40,477 nucleotides of DNA, taken from contig JAAEQG010001106.1 of assembly GCA_024231775.1 (NCBI GenBank), forward strand, positions 1 through 40,477, in the 5' to 3' direction. The notes beneath the pieces were generated by a model, which made no database searches, was not told the DNA's origin, and saw only the letters and a program-made list of their open reading frames with translations. Both the position numbers and the translations under genes were made by a program. Positions 38,637 through 40,477 of this stretch are shown piece by piece. How positions within the stretch are numbered: the first letter of the stretch is position 1; the number at the start of each line of letters is the position of its first letter. This stretch comes from a bacterium. Its GTDB lineage: Bacteria > Planctomycetota > Phycisphaerae > UBA1845.

Positions 38637-38882
38637 CTATTCGTCGTCCGGGTCAAACTGGTCGAGCAGGTCGTCCACTCGATCCCCCACGTAGGTGTTG
38701 AGCGGCGTCAGAATCGCCGACTCCACCAGGTACTCGACCACTTCCCGACCGCTCAGCGTCACCGTGGACGTCGTCGTGAACTCGCCGAGATCACACGACC
38801 CGAGCGGTAGCGCACACGCCGTGCCCGCGATCAGGACCGCCAAGCGTCGCCGCAACGCGGTCGTACACCGACCGATCTTCAT
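38637..38882 (-). CDS. Small lipoprotein of unknown function
   Basis: 81 residues. A signal peptide with lipobox LGSC (C30) after RRRLAVLIAGTACALP, then a mature part of about 50 residues, EFTTTSTVTLSGREVVEYLVESAILTP and an acidic end. The start ATG 38882 has AAGGAG seven bases upstream, which is why it is chosen over the longer frame reaching 39212. It leads the run of envelope genes, 131 bases before the DUF481 gene. Confidence 0.75.
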   Translation of the reverse strand: MKIGRCTTALRRRLAVLIAGTACALPLGSCDLGEFTTTSTVTLSGREVVEYLVESAILTPLNTYVGDRVDDLLDQFDPDDE

Positions 38883-39039: not shown

Positions 39040-39100
39040 TTCACCAGAAGCAGGATAGTGGGTCCTCCCCGAATCGGCAACCGCCGAGAAGCAGCCTCAG

Positions 39101-39242
39101 GGGTGCATCCCGAACAAGGTGGCAGAAACTGGCGAGGGTGGCATGGGCAAGCAGCAGCTTGCCCGTGGAATCGTCCAACACGGGCAAACAAGTTTGCCCA
39201 TGCCACCCCCAATCGGATGCACCCAGCATCAGGGATGCGCCC
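39101..39242. repeat. Large nested palindromic element
   Basis: An outer 10-bp inverted repeat (39101-39110 with 39215-39224) encloses a 15-bp perfect one (39136-39150 with 39194-39208, GGGTGGCATGGGCAA and its complement). Inside are two side hairpins: GGGCAAGC/GCTTGCCC around AGCA, and GGGCAAAC/GTTTGCCC around AA. TTGCCCGTG and CACGGGCAA pair across the middle. A further near-copy of the outer arm, GGGATGCGCCC, is at 39232-39242. The arms can form one long stem or a cloverleaf. No coding sequence lies in it. It looks like a REP-like or MITE-like intergenic element; only one copy of this unit is in the window. Confidence 0.7.
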
Positions 39243-39318: not shown

Positions 39319-40477
39319 TCAGCGGCCTACTTCGACATCCACATACACCAGACGATGGTCGCTGGAGGGTGCGGGATCATCGATCAGCCTGCGGAGCGGG
39401 TCATTCGGTCCTGGCCAGAACACCCCCGAACCGGTCACCTTCAATTCGGCTGACGGCAGGACGTAGTCGATTCGACCGAAGTCTGCCGTCTTGAAGAGGG
39501 TGGGTGATTGCCCGGAAACGTCCGCGGGCTTCATCCCGGGACGGCGCGGTCTGGGATCGGCCACCCGCGGTGACTTCAGCAACAAGTCGATGGCTGCCGT
39601 GCCGTACGCGCGCTCGTCCTTGTCAGGGTCGGCATTGAGGTCGCCCATGATGACGAACTCCGCTCCCCGGTCGAGGCCACCCGGTCGACCTTGGTCGTCG
39701 GTGATGTAGCTGCTCCGGTTCGCGCCGGCGACGTAGTCTGCCCAGAAGCGAATCTCGTCGAAGTTGCGGCGGCCGTTGCGGTCCTCCGCGCCGTCGAAGA
39801 CCGGGGGCGTGGGATGACAGGCCAGCACGTGGATCAGCATCGTGTCGCCCGGCCGATCGGCACGCGGAATACGCAAGGGTACATCCCAGTGACTCTTGCT
39901 ACTCAGGCGGAAGATGGTGGCTTCGAGAGGAGCGTACCACTTCGGCCTACTGCCCGCGCCGTCTGGCATGAGGTTGTCGGGCATATCCTTCCACTTGAAC
40001 TTCTGAAAGGTGCGCACGCGCTTGCGTTCGAACGGAAAGCGGCTGAACAAAGCCATACCATACTGCCCGGGATACTTGCCGTAACCGTACGCATCCGCCG
40101 GTCCGTCGGTGCGACCGTCGTTGTCCAGATCGAGCCCGCTGGGCACGCCGGTATTGACCGGCTCGAAGAACAAGTGGGGGTAGTCGATCGCCTGCTGATC
40201 CCCTTGCGGCACGTTCAGATAGCGCTCGAGGAGTAGTCGTGCGTTGCGGCGTGGGGCGTCGTCGAAGTCGATCTCGTTGATGAGCAGGACGTCCGGGCGA
40301 ACGCGTTGGACGATCTCCGCCGCCTTGCGCAGTTGCGGATCGACCCCGCATCCGTCGGCATCTGCGCGCTCGAGCTTGGCGGTGCTGAGCCCCCACACGT
40401 TGAACGCGGCGAAACGCACCGTATGCGCCGGGTTCGATCGACGGGCCTCACCACGGCTTTCGACCGAGGTTATGAAC
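39319..40477 (-). CDS. Endonuclease/exonuclease/phosphatase-family protein, 5'-truncated
   Basis: About 385 residues visible; the frame stays open through 40477, so the start is outside the window and the GTG at 40419 is internal. The fold is recognised from AAFNVWGLS at the N side, LLINEIDFDD, FVIMGDLNADP (the metal/catalytic Asp-Asn), and SSDHRLVYVDVEV at the end (the catalytic Asp-His). The NTGVPSGLDLDNDGRTDG insert and a calcium-like loop resemble large exported EEP proteins, so this is probably a secreted or surface phosphoesterase or nuclease rather than a DNA-repair enzyme. Its usual signal peptide would be upstream, beyond the window. Confidence 0.85.
   Translation of the reverse strand, partial: FITSVESRGEARRSNPAHTVRFAAFNVWGLSTAKLERADADGCGVDPQLRKAAEIVQRVRPDVLLINEIDFDDAPRRNARLLLERYLNVPQGDQQAIDYPHLFFEPVNTGVPSGLDLDNDGRTDGPADAYGYGKYPGQYGMALFSRFPFERKRVRTFQKFKWKDMPDNLMPDGAGSRPKWYAPLEATIFRLSSKSHWDVPLRIPRADRPGDTMLIHVLACHPTPPVFDGAEDRNGRRNFDEIRFWADYVAGANRSSYITDDQGRPGGLDRGAEFVIMGDLNADPDKDERAYGTAAIDLLLKSPRVADPRPRRPGMKPADVSGQSPTLFKTADFGRIDYVLPSAELKVTGSGVFWPGPNDPLRRLIDDPAPSSDHRLVYVDVEVGR

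Follow-up and report, generated by a model that had tools for sequence, protein, structure and literature searches.

A REP-carrying MITE of planctomycetes with a preferred orientation and spacing relative to predicted promoters

The nested palindrome at positions 39101-39224 of the window, by which we mean the whole analysed stretch of 40,477 nt (contig JAAEQG010001106.1), is a mobile element, namely a non-coding MITE with a pair of REP-like hairpins. Its spacing to predicted promoters, its orientation towards genes, its target duplication and its ends recur in other genomes, including elements that lack the REP pair. We consider it probable that the element is a MITE with a captured REP pair, which is moved in trans by a DDE transposase of the Mutator superfamily steered to promoter-bound polymerase.

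All pieces of the architecture given in a preliminary description of this DNA could be confirmed. The palindrome contains a perfect 15-bp inverted repeat (39136-39150/39194-39208) within a perfect outer repeat of 10 bp (39101-39110/39215-39224), it displays four alternating GGGCAA/TTGCCC stretches and it lies between two genes on the minus strand. Also present is the near-copy of the outer arm, which forms an extra terminal-repeat-like arm on the minus strand outside the right end (39232-39242, 91% complementary). It had further been proposed that the sequence can fold either as one long stem or as a cloverleaf. The long stem, with an inner hairpin, is the minimum-energy form but the cloverleaf is not, even if arms that are 91% complementary would allow other pairings (39142-39152/39157-39167 and 39179-39189/39192-39202). 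The claim of a strong structure was borne out, since a 156-nt stretch folds far better than its shuffles (z = -5.8 for DNA and -5.4 for minus-strand RNA) and none of 200 shuffles did as well. A terminator or structured RNA was rejected, as the window revealed no Rfam match and none of 37 copies of the own genome is located between convergent genes.

The edges of the 124-bp MITE copy (39101-39224, plus strand) were taken from the alignment of copies in its own genome, the left and promoter-proximal end being position 39101. It is 97.6% identical to the MITE consensus. According to the alignment, the left terminal inverted repeat is GGGTGCATCCC (39101-39111, plus strand). The block GGTGGCA (39118-39124, plus strand), a pattern common across the family, forms the inner part of an extended 24-bp repeat at this end. 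The core consists of two GTGG-tagged REP-like hairpins, the second of which is inverted (39136-39167, plus strand, and 39179-39208, minus strand). The right terminal inverted repeat (39214-39224, minus strand) reads GGGTGCATCCG here and GGGTGCATCCC in the consensus. Both sides are bordered by a target site duplication that comprises 8 bp in this copy and mostly 9 bp elsewhere, the left (AGCCTCAG, 39093-39100) and right (AGCATCAG, 39225-39232) copies being identical at 7/8 positions. The element lies 94 bp beyond the end of the upstream gene (39319-40419, minus strand), which belongs to the endonuclease/exonuclease/phosphatase family (Exo_endo_phos, PF03372). The downstream gene (38637-38882, minus strand), for which we chose the start codon, encodes 81 amino acids without a Pfam match and is read away from the left end. 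Its predicted promoter is composed of a -35 box TTGCCG (39075-39080, minus strand), which starts 21 nt from the left edge, and, after a 17-nt spacer, a -10 box TATCCT (39052-39057, minus strand). The best promoter score of the left flank was 8.75, a value reached by approximately 1% of shuffles. Because the MITE sits upstream of this predicted promoter, the predicted transcript of the gene that it faces does not include it.

A search of the own genome, a draft of 6.7 Mb in 1677 contigs, yielded further near-identical copies, at least 43 in total. Forty of 159 first-look candidates were scored and all 40 turned out to be strong matches, while the remaining ones were weak and mostly self-palindrome matches at the same places. 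The 43 copies analysed are those of 47 loci that met the length limit. The assembly may hold duplicated contig ends, as a flank is common to C1087 and C266. Aligned copies start at GGGTGCATCCC and stop at GGGATGCACCC, and their flanks diverge outside. The terminal repeat can be regarded as 11 bp or, together with the inner block, as an imperfect repeat of 24 bp (GGGTGCATCCC-N6-GGTGGCA). Comparison of the edges, as the preliminary description had advised, revealed unlike flanks and target duplications of 9 bp: in 30 copies, 9-bp flanks matched at 0.715 against 0.298 for swapped pairs, and lengths of 4-8 and 10-12 gave no comparable signal (0.22-0.37). Several elements in other genomes possess a duplication matching at 9/9 positions. 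It is because of these near-identical copies with terminal repeats and a 9-bp duplication that the 124-bp unit is regarded as a MITE. A second copy and conservation in relatives, whose absence had been named as a refutation of the earlier reading, were thus both found. The extended-end pattern was detected in 13/51 family genomes and, moreover, in 63 stretches of a genome collection, mostly metagenome assemblies of Phycisphaerae and other Planctomycetota, which suggests that the window stems from this group. The terminal-repeat pattern also matched in Streptomyces, Paenibacillus and others, but these matches look like chance. Outside the right end, 4/43 own copies (the window copy, L263, L273 and L275) have another terminal-repeat-like arm at a distance of up to 45 nt, and 0/43 have one outside the left end; L275 has a tandem right end plus a duplication. 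In another own-genome copy (L071, contig C1467), the left arm holds an insertion of about 50 bp.

The core of the MITE is made up of two palindromes in opposite orientation, each headed by GTGG (GTGG + CATGGGCAAGC...). In the own genome, 132 occurrences of the hairpin unit GGGTGGCAYGGGCAA...TTGCCCRTG were counted, compared to 0 in a backward control, and the unit is present in 11/60 relatives. The element of relative G023 exhibits the same GTGG-pair layout built of other palindromes. Similar hairpin pairs were identified in the own genome between different ends (CTAGTGCTTTGTCA...) and in other contexts. Elements with GGGTGCATCCC ends exist that do not contain the REP pair, e.g. one of 472 bp (L107) and one of 199 bp (L111). 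Since similar REP pairs sit within other ends and REP-less GGGTGCATCCC elements exist, ends and core are separable. We infer that the hairpins are passengers of the mobile unit. Among copies, the REP cores are nearly invariant (pairwise difference 0.007-0.012); the corresponding values are 0.05-0.08 for terminal repeats and most spacers and 0.32 for the short right spacer. In the target duplications, 24/189 positions differ (21 copies with at least 7/9 matching). The higher conservation of the core may be due to recent spread, to exchange with the many other hairpin copies or to use.

Neighbouring genes were assigned with a simple script, a gene caller based on a codon score. In the own genome, the gene next to the left end points away from the element in 39/40 resolvable copies, while the right end is balanced (20 away, 20 toward). 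The 37 own copies for which both neighbours are known lie between tandem (20) or divergent (17) genes and never between convergent ones; for comparison, gene pairs of the window with a gap of at least 60 bp comprise 16 tandem, four divergent and three convergent pairs. Of the tandem copies, 19 have one orientation and one has the other (p = 4e-5). In G023, the gene at the left end points away in 16/19 cases; here, tandem copies number 10 in one orientation versus two in the other, five copies are divergent and one is convergent.

Promoters were predicted, not mapped, by a script with a simple sigma70 consensus score, and flanks shorter than 100 bases were left out of the counts. Read in gene direction, the left flanks contain TTGAC at a distance of about 28 nt from the edge, and a TATACT-like box comes after it. 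The best -35 box started at 26-31 nt in 26/40 own left flanks (14 at 28 and eight at 29), compared to 4/41 right flanks and 2/40 on the wrong strand. Analyzed by arm type, a start at 27-30 nt was found in 24/38 left and 2/40 right arms of the own genome (p = 1.6e-24). The peak was first seen in these same data, so that the independent test is provided by the other genomes only, in which 13/49 left and 1/44 right arms had a -35 box at this distance, against 4% in shuffles (p = 4.5e-8). There, the effect is weaker than in the own genome and the left arms are uneven (1/12 in G023, 1/14 in G060, 1/5 in G033), most of the 13 coming from G019 and assorted other loci (10/18). Arms of unclear type were kept apart; a start at 27-30 nt was obtained for 1/4 of these in the own genome and for 6/20 in others. 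The signal in the -35 columns is weak and variable, with T at column 28 in 25/40 and at column 29 in 23/40 flanks. A minor class, in which the -35 box starts at 17-21 nt (16-20 bp), approximately one helical turn nearer, comprises 7/38 own left arms. The window copy belongs to this class, as its -35 box is at 21 nt and not at 28. One target (L018) is a tRNA-Leu promoter. By eye, no promoter was seen inside the element. An AT-rich target was also considered and dismissed, the flanks having no AT gradient. REP-less elements (e.g. L107, L130, L137, L342 and L343) have the -35 box at position 27-28. By contrast, MITEs with other ends but similar hairpins (a second family of the own genome and G022) have it at 27-30 at only 1/20 edges. 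Because the REP-less elements keep the spacing and the hairpin MITEs with other ends are devoid of it, the position relative to the promoter follows the ends, not the core.

As the whole unit is bordered by terminal inverted repeats and a 9-bp duplication, the element points to a DDE transposase. In the favored mechanism, a DDE transposase of the Mutator superfamily, of the kind known from ISKra4, ISLre2 and TnGBS, would act in trans and bind the two unlike ends differently. It would be steered, presumably by contact with the polymerase, to RNA polymerase on a sigma70-type promoter. Insertion would then occur with the left end toward the gene and would duplicate 9 bp, the edge lying about 27 bp from the -35 box in most cases. 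The model for this mechanism are elements described by Guerillot et al. (2014, PMC3942029). That paper reports that TnGBS/ISLre2 and part of the ISKra4 elements integrate at a distance of 13-17 bp upstream of sigmaA promoters, that they have Mutator-like DDE transposases, inverted repeats of 18-39 bp ending in C and duplications of 8-9 bp, and that their orientation is fixed where the two ends are unlike. The authors propose there a contact with the RNA polymerase initiation complex, mention that the p-MULT 4 family, to which the ISKra4 group belongs, is also known from Planctomycetes, and name yeast Ty3 as an analogy. Ty3 is similar insofar as insertion is guided by the transcription initiation machinery, but it is a eukaryotic retrotransposon and therefore an analogy only. 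With the p-MULT 3/4 elements (TnGBS ICEs, ISLre2, ISKra4), the MITE shares the size of the duplication, the C at the end of the inverted repeat and oriented insertion upstream of promoters, whereas similarity in repeat length holds only for the imperfect extended repeat of 24 bp. The likeness is known from insertion features, the transposase of the MITE not having been found here. On the other hand, the peak is 27-28 bp from the -35 box instead of 13-17 bp, and the elements described here are non-autonomous, about 120-470 bp long, reside in Phycisphaerae-type planctomycetes and in many cases have two REP-like hairpins. By the tested features except the distance, the MITE may work like the promoter-targeting p-MULT elements. 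It is possible, albeit somewhat less than an even bet, that promoter-bound RNA polymerase steers the family to a register lying one helical turn upstream of that used by the elements of PMC3942029, that the transposase involved is of an undescribed lineage and that the family has acquired several kinds of REP doublets, which spread as its passengers.

An alternative is random insertion followed by selection, the element being an upstream regulatory or insulating site of which well-placed copies were retained. Nearly invariant REP cores beside variable ends and spacers would fit a constrained or homogenised core. However, elements that share the ends but lack the REPs keep the distance and hairpin MITEs with other ends do not, and none of the 37 copies lies between convergent genes, where neutral insertions should survive. 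We therefore regard this explanation as unlikely. It is rather improbable, too, that the transposase reads the promoter sequence or the local DNA shape directly and that RNA polymerase is uninvolved. An enzyme reading sequence would yield equal spacing, and the evidence at hand consists of sequences only. Yet the -35 column is as weak and varied as in ordinary promoters, which suggests that many promoters are recognized through the polymerase.

The third alternative takes up the preliminary description, according to which a REP-associated transposase might be expected: a classical REP/BIME (REPIN) that a RAYT (Y1) transposase would mobilise in single-stranded form. Here, the dispersed mobile palindrome with target duplications and a REP-like core in BIME/REPIN-like layout stood, but movement by a tyrosine transposase was not supported. 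Like REPs, BIMEs and REPINs, the element has GTGG-tagged palindromes in inverted pairs, many copies and a strong stem; single units and other contexts occur and the own genome has six Y1_Tnp places. RAYT-moved REPs and BIMEs are not known to have terminal repeats or a target duplication. By contrast, the MITE encloses its pair in terminal repeats, the moving unit being defined by these and by the 9-bp duplication, and is situated upstream of promoters. Moreover, none of 36 examined Y1_Tnp loci (six own and 30 of relatives among the matches listed, with flanks of up to about 1.5 kb on each side) carries the GTGGCAYGGGCAA unit. According to PMC3733652, GTGG-tagged REPs are known from O. terrae, but REPs are mostly placed downstream of genes as well as between unidirectional or convergent ones, which is unlike the placement of the MITE. 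For the whole unit, movement by a RAYT is contradicted and thus very improbable, while it may account for the origin of the inner pair. Of the six own-genome Y1_Tnp places (L060-L065), three (L060, L062 and L064) have nearby palindromes of their own that are unlike the window unit. In L189 of G013, two GGGTGGCATGGTCCACGCTTGCGTGGCCATGC hairpins (841 and 939) lie near a weak Y1_Tnp match; they are REP-like and have the head of the window unit on another palindrome.

No autonomous parent of the MITE turned up in the own draft genome, G060 (one contig), G023 or the examined loci. Searches with 11-mer ends in three genomes, in two of them also with mismatches, did not give a parent, nor did shared proteins inside the TIR pairs of examined loci. 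PF01609 transposases (30 loci among the matches listed) and the two PF00872 places of G023 were without such ends, and the own genome has no PF00872 place. In L118, taken as the same genus as the own genome because its coordinates match G002, the left arm is kept and the right end was not found. Several candidates were discarded: exact terminal-repeat hits in the own genome look like chance, damaged copies or tandem right ends, a 2.1-kb TIR pair (L105) has no matching duplication, an ORF beside L130 has no Pfam match and an ORF near L159 encodes a peptidase.

Correia elements have terminal repeats. They resemble the MITE, as far as the consulted part of a review (PMC10969869) describes them, in being short, non-coding and upstream of genes, but they carry promoters themselves, while here the promoter belongs to the target and is at a fixed distance outside the MITE. 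No published account of the element was found in the literature on planctomycete MITEs, Phycisphaera palindromic repeats and REP/RAYT/MITE or in that on promoter-directed transposition, TnGBS, ISLre2, ISKra4 MITEs and miniature elements near promoters; it is likewise absent from the consulted parts of PMC3942029, PMC3733652, PMC8266576 and PMC10969869. Few families are known to transpose in a promoter-directed manner in bacteria, and the short elements document tens of natural landings, with a different spacing and in uncultured bacteria. If the favored mechanism holds true, each copy would flag a promoter, so that promoters of uncultured planctomycetes could be read from the copies, and the ends of the MITE would serve as a small substrate in tests of how a transposase locates the polymerase. 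The presence of REP pairs in elements that have at least two kinds of ends suggests one route of REP spread, in which REPs would travel as passengers of DDE elements.

Two further repeats were encountered. A second MITE-like family (L036, L050, L058, L059 and L211-L217 in the own genome, L191-L210 in G022) has similar GTGG-tagged hairpin pairs without promoter positioning, and in several of its loci the ends are CTAGTGCTTTGTCA.../CTAGTGCTCCGTCA... (CTAGTGYTCCGTC in G022). The third repeat is larger (L220-L223, L228 and L230 in the own genome); its left edge lies near the hairpin-unit head GGGTGGCA and its right part, ACCGAGTGGATCACGAGGTTGAAACG..., is common to the copies.
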